This document shows positions 31,994-48,862 of a DNA stretch of 64,000 nt, piece after piece (the first letter of the stretch is position 1; each line of letters starts with the position of its first letter). The translations under genes and the position numbers were made by a program. The notes under the pieces are model-generated. The model made no database searches, was not told the DNA's origin, and was given only the letters and a program-made list of their open reading frames with translations. Origin of the DNA: Spirochaetales bacterium (lineage in GTDB: Bacteria; Spirochaetota; Leptospiria; Leptospirales; Leptonemataceae); NCBI GenBank assembly GCA_015075425.1, contig JABTUL010000002.1, forward strand, positions 186,001 to 250,000, read 5' to 3'.

Positions 31994-33280
31994 CTACCGG
32001 GAAATTACGTTCAGAATGCGATCGCGCAGTTGCCAATTATCCAGAGTCCCCTGGAATTCCTGACGTCCAGGCCCGGCGCTGTAAAGCCCCACATCCACGC
32101 CGGTATGGCCGGTGGTGCTAAAGACGAGCCCAGCCCTCTGGCTGATTGCTCTGGAGAGAAATAGGGCGATTTGTTCCAGGTCTGCCATCCCGGCGCACTG
32201 CTGGATTTCCGGACCCGCAAGTTCGATCCCGGCCTCCTCATAGAGAACGCTACGGCAGGATTGACCCGTCAGGATTTTTTGTGCCATGGCTGCAGTTGAG
32301 CTGCGTACGCCGCGCAGAACCTGCGGCGAAAATCCATACACAGCCTGTCCGTTTTTCATATGACCGAGAGACAGGCCACCGGTTTCGTGGTCGGCAGTAG
32401 CCAGCACCAGAGTACGACCTTCTTTTTTTGCTAGAGCGATAGCCCGCGAGAAAGCTTCATCCAATTGCAGCACTTCCTGCACCATAGCGGCAGCATCGTT
32501 TTGATGGGCCGCATGATCGATGCGCCCGGCTTCGATGACCAGAAAAAAAGGTTTGTTTAATTGTATTATTTTTTCCATGAACTGCTCCGTCCATTCGGCA
32601 AAGGGTGGGTCCGCTGGCGGACGATCCAATTGATAGGAAAGATGATTGTCGCCCAGAAAAATGAGATCCTTGCCCCCGGGCCGTCCAAATTCTTTTAAGC
32701 CATCAAGAACCCGCCAGCCGCCGTCTTTAGCCAGAGCAATCAGATCCTGTCCGTCCTCCCGCCGACCGCCGGCTGAAACCGGTACAAACTCGCGGCGCCC
32801 ACCGCCGGCCAGAAGGTTCACCTCTGACTGGATCTGCCCGGAAGCGATAGCGGCTTCGTCTTCACGGCGGCGCGCGCTGGCGGAAAAGGCCGCCGGAGTG
32901 GCATGGGTCAAACGCGTGTTGGTGAGGACCGCAGTAAAATAGCCACGCGACGCGAGCTCTGTGGTCAGGCTGCGGCAAGGCCGGCCGGCCGGATCCATCC
33001 CCACCATCTCATTGTTGGTTCGCAGACCACAGCTGTATGCCGTGGCTGCCGCCGCCGAATCGGTAACCGGCGAATCCGCCGATGCTGTACGCACGGCTCC
33101 GCTCAAATACGCATCCAGTGCCAGAGGCCGGTCCAGGGTGGCCCGGGCAAGGGCGAGGGCCGCCGGACCAAAACCATCGGCTATGAATAAAATGACATTC
33201 TGTGGCCGCCCATCTGGCGGAATTTCTTTACAAAAGTATAAGAATGGCCAGAGGACAAGCAGTGCCAGGGACAGACGCAT
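31994..33280 (-). CDS. Alkaline phosphatase lipoprotein
   Basis: This 428-residue phosphatase starts at ATG 33278-33280, because only then does a signal peptide with a lipobox (LYFC, Cys17) appear. The active-site motif is VTDSAAAATA with the phosphorylated Ser75. The metal ligands follow in ILFIADGFG, IEAGRIDHAAHQND, TADHETGG and TTGHTGVDV. It should release phosphate from extracellular or periplasmic monoesters, anchored to a membrane. Upstream lies a sequence made of two perfect Pho-box half-sites pointing toward this gene, which suggests phosphate-starvation control. No good ribosome site precedes the start. Confidence 0.92.
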   Translation of the reverse strand: MRLSLALLVLWPFLYFCKEIPPDGRPQNVILFIADGFGPAALALARATLDRPLALDAYLSGAVRTASADSPVTDSAAAATAYSCGLRTNNEMVGMDPAGRPCRSLTTELASRGYFTAVLTNTRLTHATPAAFSASARRREDEAAIASGQIQSEVNLLAGGGRREFVPVSAGGRREDGQDLIALAKDGGWRVLDGLKEFGRPGGKDLIFLGDNHLSYQLDRPPADPPFAEWTEQFMEKIIQLNKPFFLVIEAGRIDHAAHQNDAAAMVQEVLQLDEAFSRAIALAKKEGRTLVLATADHETGGLSLGHMKNGQAVYGFSPQVLRGVRSSTAAMAQKILTGQSCRSVLYEEAGIELAGPEIQQCAGMADLEQIALFLSRAISQRAGLVFSTTGHTGVDVGLYSAGPGRQEFQGTLDNWQLRDRILNVISR

Positions 33281-33302: not shown

Positions 33303-33320
33303 GTGACAGAATGATGACAG
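33303..33320 (-). promoter_or_regulatory. Pho-box-like double direct repeat between the phosphatase and SPFH-like genes
   Basis: Read on the minus strand, 33303-33320 is CTGTCATCATTCTGTCAC: two 7-bp half-sites with 4-bp spacers, 11 bp from half-site to half-site. This equals the enterobacterial PhoB box pattern. Ten bases downstream is a weak -10 (TACCCT, complement of 33287-33292), and the phosphatase ATG follows 6 bases later. A third half-site copy (CTGTCAC) lies at 33343-33349 but is not in phase. The same bases read on the plus strand are TGACA-N6-TGACA, the HemR box, facing the SPFH-like gene. Which regulator binds here is unknown. Confidence 0.6.
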
Positions 33321-33377
33321 GCCGGTGAAAAATAAGAAACAGGTGACAGGATAGTAGCCCGCGAAAAGGTTTCCCCC

Positions 33378-41506: not shown

Positions 41507-41815
41507 ATGGCAAAAGTAACCACAGATGCTTCCTTCCAGGAAGATGTTCTCAAAAGCGATGTCCCGGTTCTCGTGGATTTCTGGGCTGAATGGTGCGGCC
41601 CCTGCCGGATGCTTGGACCGGTGATTGAAAAGGTCTCTACGCAACTGGAAGGCAAGGCAAAGGTCTACAAACTCAATGTGGACGAAAATCCGGGCGTGGC
41701 CAGTCAGTACGGCATCACTGCCATTCCGACAGTCATCGTGTTCAAGAACGGACAGGTACACAAACAGCTGGTTGGAGTCCAGAAAGAGGCGCAATACCTG
41801 GGTGCCATCGGTTGA
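41507..41815 (+). CDS. trxA: Thioredoxin
   Basis: This 102-residue thioredoxin has the redox centre WCGPC (Cys30 and Cys33), the [12 protein letters not shown] helix start and the cis-proline in [17 protein letters not shown] ribosome site precedes the start. It supplies reducing power to ribonucleotide reductase and other targets in the cytoplasm. A strong intrinsic terminator follows the stop codon, so it is transcribed separately from the hem operon downstream. Confidence 0.97.
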
Positions 41816-41838: not shown

Positions 41839-41886
41839 CCCCGTGAAATGAGATTAAGTCTCAGTACAAACCAGAACTCTCCATCC

Positions 41887-41928
41887 CTGACAAATCTCTG
41901 ACATATTTCCGACACGCCAGGATAGAAT
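41887..41928 (+). promoter_or_regulatory. HemR box and promoter upstream of hemA
   Basis: Three copies of CTGACA-like repeats start at 41887, 41898 and 41909 (CTGACA, CTGACA, CCGACA), exactly 11 bp apart, which is one DNA turn. The first two form TGACA-N6-TGACA, the hem-box reported for leptospiral HemR. A -10-like TAGAAT follows at 41923-41928, and the repeats cover the -35 position, as in activator-dependent promoters. hemA starts at 41938, ten bases after the -10, so the leader would be very short. Confidence 0.75.
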
Positions 41929-41937
41929 TCTGAGCGT

Positions 41938-43203
41938 ATGCGTAGACTCGGAGCGATCGTTCTCAGTCATGAAGAAGTGGGCGAATTGGCCTCTCTGGTT
42001 CCCTGGAAGCTAAGTTCGATAGATGACCTGGCCCGCACCCTCTTTCGGGAGACGGATCTTTCCGGCCTGGTTTACCTCTCCACCTGCAACCGTGTCTCTT
42101 TCTTCTACAGTCTAAAAAGTACCCGCCACACAGACTTTGCCTTGGCTCTCCTGGCCAGTTTGCCGCCACTGCCAGCCGGCAAAAGGCCTGCCTTTTACCA
42201 GGGCAAAGAAGTATTGCGTCATCTGCTTTCGCTGGCCGCCGGTCTGGAATCCATGGTGCTCGGGGAGACGGAGATTCGGGCCCAGCTAAAGAACGCGTTT
42301 CGTTCGGCAGAAGAAGCAGGTCACCTGGATCGCCGGCTGCGTCAGGTACTCCCGGCCGTTTTTGCCGAGGCCCGTAACATTCGTAACTCCATTCCCTTTA
42401 CCAATTTGCCTCTCTCTGTGGCCAGCCTGGCACTCAAAAAATTCACAGAAGCTCACACCGCGCAGCATGGCGAACGCGCGTTGTCGGGACAGAAAATCGC
42501 CATCATCGGCTCGGGTCCGATGAGCGCCCAGGCCGTGGAGTACGCGCGCAAAAGAGGTCTTTCCATACTCCTGGTGAATCGCTCTCTGGAAAAAATTGCC
42601 CCCCTGTGTGAACGCACCGGAGCTGACCGGATGCTTCTTCAAGATTTTTTAGAAAATCCGGAAAGTCAGGGTCCGCTGGCAGCCATATTCTCTGCAACCA
42701 GCGCACCCCACTACATTCTGGACCAGGAAGTACTGGGCAGACTGAAATCCCGACCCATCCTCATCGATCTGGCCGTTCCCCGCGACATTGATCCTTCAGC
42801 CGCCCGGAACTTTACTTTGATCTGCATGGAAACTCTCAAAAAGGAAGTGGAAGCCAATCAACAAAAAAGGCGGGCGGCTGCTGCGTTCGCCCGCGAGTTC
42901 ATTGAGGATTCGCTTTTCCGCATCAAAGCCGATTTTATCGCGGCCATTGCAGCGCCGGTGATTCGTAACTTTCAGCGCGATGTGCGCAACATTTCCAGAG
43001 AGAGACTCAGTGAACTCTTCGATAGTCGGTTGAACCATTTGAGCATGCGCGACCGCAATCTGATTTATGACTGGGCGATTCGGGCCAATCGGGATCTCAA
43101 CCGTTTGCACCGGAGCGGACTTGCCCGGGTACTGCATACCTACTACCGCGAAAATGATGCCCAGGAGGGTTTGCCTCCACTACCGGACGGCGCCCTGAAT
43201 TGA
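41938..43203 (+). CDS. hemA: Glutamyl-tRNA reductase
   Basis: HemA reduces glutamyl-tRNA to glutamate-1-semialdehyde, the first committed step of the C5 heme pathway. It has 421 residues. The nucleophilic Cys50 sits in LSTCNRVSFF, with the tRNA and substrate region in LLSLAAGLESMVLGETEI, and the NADPH-binding IAIIGSGPMSAQAVEYARKRG in the middle. The stop codon overlaps the TTG start of hemC/D. The HemR box lies just upstream, so this is the regulated head of the operon. Confidence 0.97.
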   Translation: MRRLGAIVLSHEEVGELASLVPWKLSSIDDLARTLFRETDLSGLVYLSTCNRVSFFYSLKSTRHTDFALALLASLPPLPAGKRPAFYQGKEVLRHLLSLAAGLESMVLGETEIRAQLKNAFRSAEEAGHLDRRLRQVLPAVFAEARNIRNSIPFTNLPLSVASLALKKFTEAHTAQHGERALSGQKIAIIGSGPMSAQAVEYARKRGLSILLVNRSLEKIAPLCERTGADRMLLQDFLENPESQGPLAAIFSATSAPHYILDQEVLGRLKSRPILIDLAVPRDIDPSAARNFTLICMETLKKEVEANQQKRRAAAAFAREFIEDSLFRIKADFIAAIAAPVIRNFQRDVRNISRERLSELFDSRLNHLSMRDRNLIYDWAIRANRDLNRLHRSGLARVLHTYYRENDAQEGLPPLPDGALN

Positions 43204-44825
43204 AAATCGGTACCCGGGGCTCAGATCTGGCTCTGGCCCAGGCGCGTTACATTCAGGGTTTGCTTGCCTCCGTCGGGGTTCTGGCTTCGGTTGAAATCAT
43301 CAAAACGCGCGGGGATCGCATTCTGGATGTGCCGCTTTCCGCCCTGGCAGATGAAAGAAAGGGTTTTTTTACCAAAGAAATTGAAGAAGCACTCCTTGCC
43401 GGAGAAATCGATGTGGCCGTGCACAGCTATAAAGATTTACCCACGGCGAAGGTGGACGGTCTCATTGTCGCGGCTCTTCCCGAACGGCAGACTCCATCAG
43501 AAATTCTTCTGGTGCGCAAATCCAGCCAGACAAAAGCAGAATTACCTTTTCTTTCAGCCGGCCAGAGCCTGGGCACTTCCTCAGAAAGACGAAAAGCGCA
43601 GATCCAGTGGCACTGGCCAGGTCTCCTGATCCAGGACCTTCGCGGAAATGTACCGACGCGCATTGCTAAACTGCGTGAAGGATTGTATGACGGCATTCTG
43701 CTTGCGGGGGCCGGCATTGGTCGCTTGCAGGCCTCTGGAGCGATTACCGACCAGGAACTAAAGGAATTGCTGCTCACCGAGCTGCCTGTGGCTCTTTTCC
43801 CCGGAGCGCCCGCCCAGGGAGCATTGGCCCTGCAATGCAGAGACGATGACCCGGAAACCCTGAGCATTCTGAACAAGCTGCACCGGACGGATCTGGCCGC
43901 GGCTGTGGATGCAGAACGCACCGTTCTCGAAGGATTGCAGGGTGGCTGCCACCTTCCGCTGGGCATTCATGTGCAGACAGGGGAGAACCAATTCCTGGCT
44001 CATCTGTTCCTCGGAAAGGAAGCCAGCAACAATCGGCATGGACAATCGTTTCTCATCAAGCGTAGCGCAAAAACCTCAGCGGGGCTCGCCCAACTGTTGC
44101 TTACCGAAATCAAAGAAAAACCACCGATTATCCTGACCGGACGGGAGGACCGCACCCAGGAACTGGAACTGCCGCGCAAAATCCTCCTGCCTCTCATCGA
44201 GCCGCAATATTTGAACCCGGACCCCGCACCGCTGGCCCGGTGGCTTGCTTCTGATGGTCCACACTTCATCGCTCTATTCTCCGTTCCCGCCTTGCGGGCA
44301 CTCTGTCGACTCACGGAACCCCAACTGCTCCAGCGGGGAAATTTCCTGGTCACGGGTAAGGCCACCCGGGCAGCGGTGGAAAAAGCTTTTCCGCAGGCCA
44401 GAATCGTTTGCGAGTCCACAGACGGCACGGCCGGAACTCTTGCCCGGCTCTTCCGCGAGCAATCCGGGCGGGCCTCGATTCTCTTGCCACGGGCCCGGGA
44501 AGGCCGGACAGAGTTTCAGGAAATCATTGGTGAACAAAACATAGTGGAATGGGAAGTCTATCGAACCATTCCGCGGCTGGCAACGGCAGCGGAACTTGCC
44601 GGCATGCCGGCCACTGCCGTCGTGGTTCTGGCCAGCCCATCGGCCGTGCAGGCCTGGATTGCTTCTTACCGCCAGGCTGGACTGCAGATTCCGGAAAGGA
44701 TGATCCATGCTTGCCTCGGCCCCACAACTGCCGCAGAACTGCAGAGCCATGGATTCATTCCCAATTTAGTTGCCAGACAGGCCAACTACGAAAGTCTACT
44801 ACACGAACCTTTTTTTACGTCGTAA
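43200..44825 (+). CDS. hemCD: Fused porphobilinogen deaminase / uroporphyrinogen-III synthase
   Basis: Residues 1 to about 300 are HemC: KIGTRGSDLALAQARYIQ, AVHSYKDLPT, RRKAQIQWHWP and the dipyrromethane-cofactor Cys250 in LQGGCHLPLG. The rest (about 310-541) is HemD, with the PAPLARWLASDGPHFIALFSVPALRALC and MPATAVVVLASPSAVQAWIASYR strand patterns typical of this poorly conserved enzyme. The two catalyse successive steps, so fusion may channel hydroxymethylbilane. A HemC/HemD fusion is known from Leptospira. The start is TTG 43200. Confidence 0.94.
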   Translation: MKIGTRGSDLALAQARYIQGLLASVGVLASVEIIKTRGDRILDVPLSALADERKGFFTKEIEEALLAGEIDVAVHSYKDLPTAKVDGLIVAALPERQTPSEILLVRKSSQTKAELPFLSAGQSLGTSSERRKAQIQWHWPGLLIQDLRGNVPTRIAKLREGLYDGILLAGAGIGRLQASGAITDQELKELLLTELPVALFPGAPAQGALALQCRDDDPETLSILNKLHRTDLAAAVDAERTVLEGLQGGCHLPLGIHVQTGENQFLAHLFLGKEASNNRHGQSFLIKRSAKTSAGLAQLLLTEIKEKPPIILTGREDRTQELELPRKILLPLIEPQYLNPDPAPLARWLASDGPHFIALFSVPALRALCRLTEPQLLQRGNFLVTGKATRAAVEKAFPQARIVCESTDGTAGTLARLFREQSGRASILLPRAREGRTEFQEIIGEQNIVEWEVYRTIPRLATAAELAGMPATAVVVLASPSAVQAWIASYRQAGLQIPERMIHACLGPTTAAELQSHGFIPNLVARQANYESLLHEPFFTS

Positions 44826-44836
44826 GCGAGAATCCC

Positions 44837-46075
44837 ATGGGCCAGAAATCTATAGAATTATTTGAAAAAGCAAAGCGTCTGATTCCGGGCGGAGTGAACA
44901 GCCCTGTCCGCGCCTTTGGTTCTGTAGGCGGAACCCCGGTCTTCATGGCCCAGGGCAGAGGAGCCTACCTCACAGACGTAGATGGCAACCGTTACCTGGA
45001 TTTCAATTCCTCCTGGGGCCCGCTCATTACCGGCCACTGTCACCCCGATATTACCGCTGCCATTCACGCACAGGTCGATCGTGCTCTGACCTTCGGCACG
45101 CCAACAGAACTGGAAGTGGAACTTGCTTCCTGGATCCTGGAGAGACTGGAAGTTCCTGGCATGGAACAGATTCGCTTTGTGAGCAGCGGAACGGAAGCGG
45201 TGATGAGCGCCCTGCGATTGGCTCGCGGCTACACTGCGCGCACCCATATTCTAAAGTTTGCTGGCTGCTACCACGGTCATGTGGATGCCCTTCTGGTCAA
45301 AGCCGGGTCCGGACTGGCTACCTCGGGGATCCCGGACAGCGCTGGCATTCCAGAAGGTGTTAGCGCCATGACTGTTGTGGTGGAACTTGATGATGAAGAG
45401 GCTCTGGAAAAGGCCTTCCAGGAATACGGTGATCGATTGGCGGCGGCCATCATCGAACCCGTTCCCGCCAATAACGGCCTTTTGCTGCAACGCCCCGAGT
45501 TTTTACAGAAACTTCAGAAATTGTGCAAAGAATACGGTGCCCTCTTCATTCTCGATGAGGTGATTTCCGGTTTTCGTCTGGGCTTTTCCGGCGCAGCTCA
45601 TGCATACAACCTGCAACCCGACCTCGTCACCTACGGAAAAATCATTGGGGGAGGTCTGCCCGTCGGAGCCTTTGCCGGTCGCCGGGAAATCTTTGCCTCC
45701 CTGGCACCACTGGGACCGGTTTATCAGGCAGGAACTCTGTCCGGTAATCCCGTAGCCATGGCCGCCGGACTGGCCTGCTTGAAACTATTAACAAAAGAAT
45801 TGTATGATCATCTGGAAGATCTGGGGCAGGTGCTTGATCGTCTGGACGGCAACTGGAAACTGGTTCGACTGGGTTCCATTTTCTGGCTTTACCGGGGGGA
45901 ATTGCCCCGCCGGGCCAGCCAGATTGATCCCGCGGGCATTTCCGCCTACAAGGAGCTGTTTCATCGACTGCTGGCTGCTGGAATCTATCTGGCCCCGTCC
46001 GGCTATGAAGTGGGTTTCCTGTCCTCCCCCATGCAAAAAAGTGATGTCGAGCGCTTCATCGGGGCTGTCGGGTAG
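44837..46075 (+). CDS. hemL: Glutamate-1-semialdehyde 2,1-aminomutase
   Basis: HemL converts GSA to 5-aminolevulinate with PLP. The start is ATG 44837; the longer frame reads back across hemD. It has 412 residues, about 15 fewer than usual. The family motifs are present: NSPVRAFGSVGGTPVFMAQG, FVSSGTEAVMSALRLARGYT, ILDEVISGFR and the PLP-binding Lys268 in VTYGKIIGGGLPVGAF. The shortfall lies in the helix pair before LGSIFWLY near the C-terminus. hemB, needed for the next step, is absent between hemC/D and hemL. Confidence 0.96.
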   Translation: MGQKSIELFEKAKRLIPGGVNSPVRAFGSVGGTPVFMAQGRGAYLTDVDGNRYLDFNSSWGPLITGHCHPDITAAIHAQVDRALTFGTPTELEVELASWILERLEVPGMEQIRFVSSGTEAVMSALRLARGYTARTHILKFAGCYHGHVDALLVKAGSGLATSGIPDSAGIPEGVSAMTVVVELDDEEALEKAFQEYGDRLAAAIIEPVPANNGLLLQRPEFLQKLQKLCKEYGALFILDEVISGFRLGFSGAAHAYNLQPDLVTYGKIIGGGLPVGAFAGRREIFASLAPLGPVYQAGTLSGNPVAMAAGLACLKLLTKELYDHLEDLGQVLDRLDGNWKLVRLGSIFWLYRGELPRRASQIDPAGISAYKELFHRLLAAGIYLAPSGYEVGFLSSPMQKSDVERFIGAVG

Positions 46076-47152
46076 GTGCATAGCTGGCTGAAGCGAATTC
46101 GTTCCGCCGCACATCCGTCTTTACTGGCCAGCGGACTGATCGTGGCCGGACTCCTGCTCATCATCGCCCAGTTGGGCTGGTGGCTGGTCTTTTTTCAGAT
46201 GACCAGCCGCGAAAGGCAGATCGAGCAGAAGCGCCTGGATCAAGCGCTTCTGGAACTGGCCCGCCGTGGCCTGGTAGATCCGACTGTGGAGCGGCAGGGA
46301 AACGATTTTGGTATCCGCAGCGCCATTGTGGAAGAAAGGGAGCAGCGCCGACGCGGGCAGCTCCTCATGCTTGTGTCTGAAACGATGGCCGTAGTTCTGG
46401 TCTTGAGCTTAATTGTCTATCGATCTACAAAAATATTGCGGCGGGAAGTAGACCTGGCGCGGGAACGCACGGCTTTTTTACATTCGGTCACCCATGAATT
46501 GAAAACCCCGCTTACTACTATTTCTTTAGGACTTGAGACGCTGCAAATGCATGATCTCACAGTGAAGGAACGCAAACAAATCCTGCTGGACGCTACTCAG
46601 GCCACCGAACGACTCGAACAGGAAATCAATGCTCTACTGGCAGGAAGTGCTCTTTTGCGCAAAACCGTGCGCATTCGCGATGGACAATCAGAAGTGGGTG
46701 AGATTTTAGAGCGCATCCTTGAGCAGCACAATGCTTTGATTCAAAAAAAGAAGTTAACGATCAAGACCCGCCTGTGGCCGGAAAAACTCATCATCGGCGG
46801 AATCCATTCCGAATTTTTGCAGAGAGCCCTGGGCAATATCATTCAAAATGCCATCCAGTACTCGCCAGATTCCTGTACCATAGAAATCACTGTGGATGCT
46901 GATCGCAAATGGCTTTCCATTCACATCTCCGATCAAGGCCCCGGCCTGTCCGGCGCGGAAAGAAAAAAAATATTCCGCCCTTTATACCGCGGATTGCATG
47001 CGCGGGCGGGCGGCAGTGGCATGGGGCTTTCCATCGCTCGCAACATCATTGAGCAGGCAGGCGGAGAAATTCTGGTGGTCTCTGATGCGATTGCCGGCGG
47101 CAGCACCTTCACGGTACGGTTTCCACGCGCGCGCCTGAAGGATGCCCTGTGA
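46076..47152 (+). CDS. Heme-operon sensor histidine kinase (HemK-like)
   Basis: This 358-residue kinase starts at GTG 46076, right after the hemL stop codon. It has two membrane segments (about 17-40 and 95-113) with a short periplasmic loop between them. The HisKA dimerisation helix holds the phospho-His140 in SVTHELKTPLTT, and the ATPase domain has NIIQNAIQYS (N box), ISDQGPGLSG and GGSGMGLSIARNII. No HAMP is evident. Its position inside the hem operon and the regulator after it match the Leptospira HemKR system; the signal is not known from sequence. Confidence 0.93.
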   Translation: MHSWLKRIRSAAHPSLLASGLIVAGLLLIIAQLGWWLVFFQMTSRERQIEQKRLDQALLELARRGLVDPTVERQGNDFGIRSAIVEEREQRRRGQLLMLVSETMAVVLVLSLIVYRSTKILRREVDLARERTAFLHSVTHELKTPLTTISLGLETLQMHDLTVKERKQILLDATQATERLEQEINALLAGSALLRKTVRIRDGQSEVGEILERILEQHNALIQKKKLTIKTRLWPEKLIIGGIHSEFLQRALGNIIQNAIQYSPDSCTIEITVDADRKWLSIHISDQGPGLSGAERKKIFRPLYRGLHARAGGSGMGLSIARNIIEQAGGEILVVSDAIAGGSTFTVRFPRARLKDAL

Positions 47153-47826
47153 ATATTCTGCTGGTAGAAGATGAAATCGCTCTGGGCCGCACCATCGCAC
47201 TGAATCTGAAGCGAGCCGGATATGCAGTGGAACACCGTGAATCTGCAGAAGAAGCTCTGCAACTTCTGTCAGAAAATCGCAATTTCCAGCTCAGCATCGT
47301 GGACATTGGCTTGAAAGGAAAAATGACCGGCATCGACCTGTGTCAGAAAATTCGCGAACGTAAGTTACTCCTGCCGGTGATTTTTCTCACGGCCAGAAAT
47401 CTCCTGGAAGACAAAGAAGCAGCCTTCCATGCCGGGGGTGATGACTACCTCACCAAGCCTTTTCAAATCAAAGAGCTACTCCTGCGCATAGAAGCCCGGA
47501 CCCGCAATGTTCCCCGCATTCCTGACCAGATCCGCATCGGGGAAAAAACCCTGGATCTTGTGGCAGGGCGGGTCAGCGGCGGCGGAACGGAAGAATTACG
47601 GCTGAATGAACGCGAACTGCGGATACTGCGGCTGTTCATCGAGAATCGCGGAAAACCGGTGAGCCGTGATGTGATTCTTGATCAAGTCTGGGGCACAGAT
47701 TATCCCAGCAATAGAACTGTAGATAATTTTATTGTTAAATTCAGAAAAATATTTGAGAAAGACCCCTCCAGTCCACGCCTGTTCCTTACCCGGCATGGGC
47801 TGGGTTATGAGTTAACCCATGAGTAA
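47149..47826 (+). CDS. Heme-operon OmpR-type response regulator (HemR-like)
   Basis: This 225-residue regulator starts at GTG 47149 and overlaps the kinase stop. The receiver carries LVEDE, phosphoacceptor Asp52 in SIVDIGLKG and the DDYLTKPF lysine. The C-terminus is a winged helix of OmpR/PhoB type (ELRILRLFIENRGKPVSRDVILDQVWG, then DNFIVKFRKIFEKDP). Such regulators bind direct repeats of about 11-bp period. The repeats before hemA match that expectation and the reported HemR box. It overlaps hemE by 8 bp. Confidence 0.94.
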   Translation: MNILLVEDEIALGRTIALNLKRAGYAVEHRESAEEALQLLSENRNFQLSIVDIGLKGKMTGIDLCQKIRERKLLLPVIFLTARNLLEDKEAAFHAGGDDYLTKPFQIKELLLRIEARTRNVPRIPDQIRIGEKTLDLVAGRVSGGGTEELRLNERELRILRLFIENRGKPVSRDVILDQVWGTDYPSNRTVDNFIVKFRKIFEKDPSSPRLFLTRHGLGYELTHE

Positions 47827-48862
47827 AAAAATACTGATCCAGGCCCTTCAAGGAGAACGAACCGATCGTGTCCCTTTCTGGTATATGCGCCAGGCAGGGC
47901 GTTATCTACCGGAGTACAACCGGATTCGCAGTCAGATGACCTTCATGGAATTGACCCGCAATGTTTCTGCTGCCGTGGAGGTAAGCCAGCAACCCTACCT
48001 GCGATTTGGCATGGACGGGCTGATTATGTTCTCGGATATTCTCACGCCCCTGAGCGGGGCGGGAATTCCCCTGCACTTTGCAGAAAAGAAAGGCCCGGTA
48101 CTTGAAAAAGTCATCCGCAGCAATGAAGATCTGGCGGCGCTACAGGAATTCGAGGCCACCCGGGACACGCCTTATGTTGCTGATATTTTACAAAAATTAC
48201 GACAATTCTGTGATGCAGAAGGACCGGCACTCATCGGCTTTGGCGGCGCTCCCTTCACTCTGGCCAGCTACTTGATTGAAGGTGGCAGCACCCGCTCTTT
48301 TGATGAATGCAAGCGTATGCTCTTCGGGCAAGCGGATCTGTACCGGACTCTGGCCCTGCGGCTCACGGAAATTTCCATCAATTACCTGAGCATGCAAATA
48401 CAGGCCGGGGCAGAGGTCATCCAGATCTTTGATTCCTGGGGTGGCGTCCTGTCGGTTGAACATTACCAGAAATTTGCCGCTCCTTACAGCCAGAAGATTA
48501 TTGAAAAATTGAAAGAAAAATATCCTAAAATTCCTGTGATCCTCTTTGTGGGCAATGCCGCCCATCTCACGGCAGCACTGAGCAGTTCAGGGGCCGCTGC
48601 CTTAAGCCTTGACTGGCGGGTTCCCGCAGCTGAAATCCGGCAAATTCCGCCCGGTATAGCGCTACAGGGTAACCTTGACCCACTGGTCCTTTACGGGTCG
48701 CAAACAACTGTGCAGCAGGAAACCCGATCCACACTTACCCGATTCGAGAATCGGCCGGGTTACGTCTTCAATCTGGGGCATGGCATCCATCCCGCCACAC
48801 CCATTGAAAACGTAGAAACAATGGTCCGCACGGTGCGTGACTATAAACTGAATCATTCATGA
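47819..48862 (+). CDS. hemE: Uroporphyrinogen decarboxylase
   Basis: HemE removes four acetate carboxyls of uroporphyrinogen III to give coproporphyrinogen III. It has 347 residues, the normal length. The N-terminal PFWYMRQAGRYLPEY holds the substrate-binding Arg. LIGFGGAPFTLASYLIEGG and FDSWGGVLS match the family, and the C-terminal LGHGIHPATPIENVETMV is conserved. It is the last heme gene in the window: hemN, hemG and hemH are not seen. It overlaps the regulator gene, which implies coupled translation. Confidence 0.97.
   Translation: MSKKILIQALQGERTDRVPFWYMRQAGRYLPEYNRIRSQMTFMELTRNVSAAVEVSQQPYLRFGMDGLIMFSDILTPLSGAGIPLHFAEKKGPVLEKVIRSNEDLAALQEFEATRDTPYVADILQKLRQFCDAEGPALIGFGGAPFTLASYLIEGGSTRSFDECKRMLFGQADLYRTLALRLTEISINYLSMQIQAGAEVIQIFDSWGGVLSVEHYQKFAAPYSQKIIEKLKEKYPKIPVILFVGNAAHLTAALSSSGAAALSLDWRVPAAEIRQIPPGIALQGNLDPLVLYGSQTTVQQETRSTLTRFENRPGYVFNLGHGIHPATPIENVETMVRTVRDYKLNHS

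Follow-up and report, generated by a model that had tools for sequence, protein, structure and literature searches.

What does a regularly spaced repeat in front of a haem biosynthesis gene reveal about the signals to which this gene responds? The 64-kb stretch of DNA analysed here (the window) contains CTGACA at 41887-41892, CTGACA at 41898-41903 and CCGACA at 41909-41914, an array with an exact 11-bp period that precedes hemA, the gene of glutamyl-tRNA reductase. A reading made from the letters only (the sequence-only reading) had drawn attention to this triple repeat and had assigned it to the leptospiral regulator HemR, and the array is indeed found where it had been placed. Perfect TGACA, however, is seen in repeats 1 and 2 only; repeat 3 reads CGACA.

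The hem-box

41507-41815, same direction as hemA: thioredoxin gene, the upstream neighbour of the hem-box
41888-41903, + strand: hem-box TGACA-AATCTC-TGACA, predicted operator of phospho-HemR, an exact match to the L. biflexa motif
41923-41928, + strand: -10-like hexamer TAGAAT, separated by 19 bp from the second TGACA

TGACA[N6]TGACA is the hem-box reported for HemR of L. biflexa (PMC11426443, citing Morero et al. 2014). Repeats 1 and 2, which begin as a box 50 bp 5' of the hemA start codon, are the same as this published motif, and the box precedes hemA across the class. Judged by these features, their earlier interpretation as a hem-box is right and was already known. The exact pattern TGACA-N6-TGACA has two matches in the window (33304 and 41888), and 200 first-order Markov simulations of the window yielded a mean of 0.06. 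In the 4.13-Mb genome it is not enriched, with 4 matches versus 4 for the reversed control. The bare pattern is thus at genome background, its letters alone are insufficient, and it gains meaning only from where it lies and from being conserved. The case for the present site is made because it precedes hemA, is kept in relatives and has fitting spacer letters. A matrix built solely from the hemA promoters of relatives, the window being left out, gave its top score in the window to the hem-box (26.9 bits at 41886), the second-highest to the overlapping units 2-3 (16.9 bits), and 12.6 bits to the next site; the spacer letters are informative in this matrix (T at +7). Other exact sites in the genome (L001, L004) reach less than 10 bits and look like chance.

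For comparison, hemA loci were drawn from the order, the class and the phylum. They comprise the window's own family (f1), Leptospiraceae-like genomes (f2) and other families (f4, f5 and f6). The two-copy hem-box is exact before hemA in 17 of the 17 f1 genomes with a long-type HemA and in the f2 genomes checked (G025-G029); it is also found before hemA in most f4 and f6 genomes. A form with one mismatch, TTACA-N6-TGACA, was read by eye in some promoters of f5 and of one f6 genus. Before hemA, the hem-box is therefore kept wherever a leptospiral family offers good hemA data; in a few genomes its form is degenerate. Two f1 genomes, G006 (L227 / L291) and G007 (L241 / L297), encode a short, Leptospira-type HemA of about 294 amino acids instead of the long type. 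They still have the hem-box before hemA, and G006 has a ferrochelatase-like gene that diverges from it.

The distance to the -10-like hexamer is also a recurrent feature. In most f1 and f2 promoters, as judged by eye from the alignment, 19 nucleotides separate the second TGACA from a hexamer of the TAnnnT type. A scan of the hemA promoter found no consensus pair of sigma-70 -35 and -10 elements, which would be expected if HemR stands in for the -35 element. The two TGACA would then lie at about -47 to -43 and -36 to -32, like the site of an OmpR/PhoB-type activator that overlaps -35. Transcription is predicted to begin near 41935, very close to the hemA ATG (41938), which leaves next to no leader. 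In L. interrogans, mRNAs that lack a leader are frequent (PMC5243855).

The haem operon and its regulator

41938-43203, + strand: hemA, glutamyl-tRNA reductase, a long-type HemA (Pfam GlutR_N, 1.1e-23)
43200-44825, + strand: hemC-hemD fusion, porphobilinogen deaminase plus uroporphyrinogen-III synthase (Pfam Porphobil_deam, HEM4)
44837-46075, + strand: hemL, glutamate-1-semialdehyde aminotransferase (likely start; open frame from 44549; Pfam Aminotran_3)
46076-47152, + strand: hemK-like histidine kinase (Pfam HisKA, HATPase_c)
47149-47826, + strand: hemR-like response regulator of the OmpR/PhoB family (Pfam Response_reg, Trans_reg_C)
47819-48862, + strand: hemE, uroporphyrinogen decarboxylase (Pfam URO-D, 6.7e-114)

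The claim that the regulator gene belongs to the same operon is borne out: the hemR-like gene lies within the hem operon, where it forms a cognate pair with hemK (46076-47826). Because the genes of the operon overlap or abut and include the regulator, HemR is likely to control its own synthesis. The order hemA-hemCD-hemL-hemK-hemR-hemE is kept in f1, f4, f5 and f6 genomes; it was not seen in Leptospiraceae-like genomes, nor in the f1 genera g9, g10 and g12, where hemR is found elsewhere. In these three genera no exact hem-box was found near the displaced hemR, and autoregulation thus seems to be tied to operon membership.

Among operon-borne regulators the region of the recognition helix (R-x2-DN-x-IVKFRK type) is nearly invariant across the class, which agrees with a constant DNA site. 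A search of the contigs of the own genome with HemR yielded just unrelated regulators of the OmpR family (39% identity at most). At a threshold of 1e-32, a search with the window's regulator gave no match in the Leptospiraceae-like genomes.

The third repeat

41910-41914, + strand: degenerate third half-site CGACA, in 11-bp phase and between -35 and -10, lineage-specific and of doubtful function

The sequence-only reading had gone one step further and had let the third half-site extend the hem-box, so that HemR dimers might bind in tandem. The half-site exists, but it is degenerate and not conserved. When 32 hemA promoters were scored with a matrix trained without the window's own genus, a strong third unit (units 2-3) emerged in 2 of them, the window with 16.4 bits and G009 with 17.8 bits; the remaining 30 did not exceed 6.7 bits. 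The sequence-only reading itself had proposed to look in relatives for a third half-site in phase; this check turned out negative for 30 of the 32 promoters. Counted by letters, 3 of the 32 have a third half-site with at least 4/5 matches, and the chance of finding at least 4/5 of TGACA in phase on either flank of a given pair is 3%. The HemA tree did not decide between a sister and a non-sister relation of the window and G009, so that common descent of their third units is no more than possible. G021, which is about as close in HemA, scores -12.5 bits for units 2-3.

Tandem binding would mean that HemR occupies all three repeats with at least two dimers, which either strengthens binding or, at high HemR, leads to autorepression by covering the -35/-10 region. 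The second rank of units 2-3 in the window, their fitting spacer and the equally good third unit of G009 (TGAAA) speak for it. So do exact triple arrays elsewhere in the class, which indicate that a longer array may be possible for this protein family, although both of them precede genes other than hemA. Absence from nearly all hemA promoters, including that of the similarly close G021, a chance expectation of this size beside any pair, and the location between -35 and -10, which would put a bound dimer in the way of RNA polymerase, render this explanation unlikely. As a general mechanism, tandem dimers are not supported. The third half-site may at best be a weak, lineage-specific extension and not a conserved part of the promoter; probably it is of little effect.

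The two exact three-copy arrays of TGACA with an 11-bp period deserve mention in their own right. One is found in G006 (C96:1717-1743; L225:1717-1743) before a gene for a transporter of the sugar-phosphate type, the other in G033 (C53:31547-31573; L226:2048-2074) before a gene for a haem-motif protein resembling c-type cytochromes.

A Fur-type box upstream

41849-41863, no strand assigned: Fur-type box, a 15-bp palindrome TGAGA-TTAAG-TCTCA (TGAGATTAAGTCTCA), 24 bp upstream of the hem-box

What the sequence-only reading overlooked is this palindrome. Its sole exact match in the window is the one at 41849-41863. In all 17 of the 17 f1 promoters of long-type hemA, TGAGA-N5-TCTCA with at least 8/10 arm letters is found 23-24 bp 5' of the hem-box; its conservation exceeds that of the third repeat. 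The arms reach at most 7/10 in the hemA promoters of f2, f4 and f6, and G006 and G007, with their short HemA, show no Fur-type box within the 70 bp examined.

Elsewhere in the genomes the motif marks iron-related genes. Summed over the f1 genomes, exact sites of the form TGAGANTNANTCTCA number 68, versus 3 for the reversed control; with one mismatch allowed, the window's own genome has 18 sites versus 2. Its neighbours there are genes for bacterioferritin, an exbB-like gene with HutZ-like and HutX genes, and HmuY. In relatives they are FeoA/FeoB, TonB receptors, HmuY, BFD ferredoxin, rubrerythrin and haem-transport genes, part of which were named from their sequences alone. At L142:1501 (own genome C1:729407), a one-mismatch box lies where an ExbB-like gene diverges from a haem-use pair, a PNPOx-type (HutZ-like) gene and HutX. 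By this context the palindrome is best regarded as the Fur box of the f1 clade.

A protein that could bind it is also encoded. Of the two Fur-family proteins of the own genome, L135 is a canonical Fur: it has HHDH-x2-CxxC and the Fur-type arginine in helix H4, a criterion for the Fur type (PMC8638851), and its best PDB matches are ferric uptake regulation proteins. The other one has a PerR-like helix.

The palindrome might, of course, serve only the upstream neighbour gene, or another Fur-family protein of the PerR or Irr type, and not take part in a joint control of hemA. The protein with the PerR-like helix would fit such an explanation, as would genus g12, where a TonB-receptor-like gene is divergent from hemA. 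The gene upstream of hemA is, however, co-directional in the window and in g10, which leaves only hemA downstream of the box; elsewhere divergent EamA-like, TonB-receptor-like or globin-like genes are found at this place. Since the neighbours vary and the one in the window is co-directional, hemA would be the common target. Moreover, the spacing to the hem-box stays constant while the neighbours change, and the other neighbours of the motif are genes of iron uptake and haem use. A role restricted to the neighbour or to another family member is therefore improbable, somewhat more so than tandem binding of HemR.

By coordinate arithmetic, the distance from the Fur box to the 22-bp hem-box is about 42 bp from centre to centre, i.e., four helix turns, which suggests that the two proteins contact the same face of the DNA. 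The fixed spacing further suggests that Fur and HemR act jointly.

A probable promoter with two inputs

We consider it probable that the haem operon is driven by a promoter with two inputs, HemR at the hem-box and Fur upstream. The sites, their conservation and spacing, the gene order, the iron-regulon context of the palindrome and the Fur gene are computational observations. What the model would add to them is the binding itself, an activating role and autoregulation of HemR, and an effect of Fur, of either sign. A phosphorylated HemR dimer would bind head-to-tail to the two TGACA half-sites, at about -47 to -32. The promoter-proximal TGACA would replace the -35 element, and HemR would recruit RNA polymerase to the -10 hexamer at 41923-41928, with transcription beginning at about 41935, beside the start codon of hemA. 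As hemK and hemR are part of the operon, HemR would reinforce its own production. An iron-bound Fur dimer would sit on TGAGATTAAGTCTCA, four helix turns (about 42 bp) away from the hem-box centre on its upstream side and on the same face of the DNA, from where it would modulate HemR-dependent transcription according to iron. The bacterium thus probably uses a single promoter to adjust the making of haem to iron as well as to haem precursors. Several observations count against the model: the position of the Fur box at about -79, far from that usual for a repressor, the background frequency of the bare hem-box pattern in the genome, the missing match to the window's regulator in Leptospiraceae-like genomes, and the lack of a Fur-type box in their hemA promoters.

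A more demanding version has Fur and the two-component regulator form a joint complex of fixed geometry, four helix turns apart, as a logic gate for iron and haem precursors, the module being either gained in f1 or lost in the sister families while the hem-box was kept. We offer it tentatively, with the balance tilting against it.

That a PhoB-type regulator places hemA under phosphate control is very hard to believe. The other strand does read TGTCA-N6-TGTCA, which coincides with the core of a Pho-box, and a Pho-box-like site is found at 33304-33330 (minus strand) of the window, in front of a gene for an alkaline phosphatase. Against this, the spacer of the hem-box is conserved, the hemA matrix gives the phosphatase site less than 8 bits, the repeat points the other way relative to the gene, and the HemKR genes travel with the hem operon. 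The phosphatase site itself is an array, TTTCA-N6-TGTCA-N6-TGTCA, from which 11 bp lead to a -10-like TACCCT, and the gene downstream (31994-33280) has the Pfam domain Alk_phosphatase (4.5e-70). It was discarded as a conserved Pho site of the family, since in other genomes no phosphatase gene follows comparable sequences.

Comparison with known systems

In PhoB promoters with a Pho-box, a dimer of the OmpR/PhoB family binds to 11-bp direct repeats, the proximal half of which overlaps -35. The promoter described here shares with them the 11-bp direct repeats, the OmpR/PhoB-family dimer and a proximal half over -35, as predicted. It differs in the opposite orientation of the repeats to the gene, in the spacer letters and in the genes concerned, which are those of haem and not of phosphate.

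The consensus of the Fur box is a 7-1-7 palindrome of the TGATAATNATTATCA type. Like this classic box, the one upstream of hemA is a 15-bp palindrome with TGA...TCA ends, its motif adjoins genes of iron uptake, iron storage and haem use, and a canonical Fur is encoded in the genome. Unlike it, the form of the clade favours TGAGA...TCTCA, and at hemA it lies on the 5' side of an activator site, near -79, and not over the core promoter. The motif should be useful for annotating iron regulons in this clade.

The closest precedent is the HemKR system of L. biflexa, where phospho-HemR binds TGACA[N6]TGACA and has been proposed to activate hemA and to repress hmuO (PMC11426443). In G023 (L239:2209) a reversed hem-box precedes a heme oxygenase gene, matching the hmuO repression site reported for L. 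biflexa. In three g4 species, TGACATTTCTTTGACA is kept before a multihaem cytochrome c gene (L228:2265, L229:2202, L230:2224), which is followed by a gene for a large oxidoreductase-like subunit; this may be an extra target of HemR in respiration.

For hemA of L. biflexa, composite control has been described, and an additional, unidentified iron-responsive regulator was called for (PMC11426443). An earlier report on a Fur box at a leptospiral hemA was not found in the open-access literature, and what appears to be new here is that a Fur-type box is conserved and keeps a fixed register with the hem-box. With it, the focus moves away from the third, non-conserved repeat. As the f2 hemA promoters lack a Fur-type box, it cannot directly explain the iron effect in L. 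biflexa and would be an answer for the window's family only; as a box in a sister family, it points to Fur as a testable candidate for the regulator left open there.

Both systems have the same motif before hemA, a regulator of the OmpR/PhoB family with its kinase, and a haem operon as target. In L. biflexa, hemA (LEPBIa1171) and hemKR (LEPBIa1422-1423) are separate loci (PMC11426443), whereas here hemKR resides inside the hem operon, HemA is of the long type, and the hem-box is preceded at a fixed distance by a Fur-type box. From one family to another, the promoter logic of haem synthesis would have changed, with the HemR site being kept.
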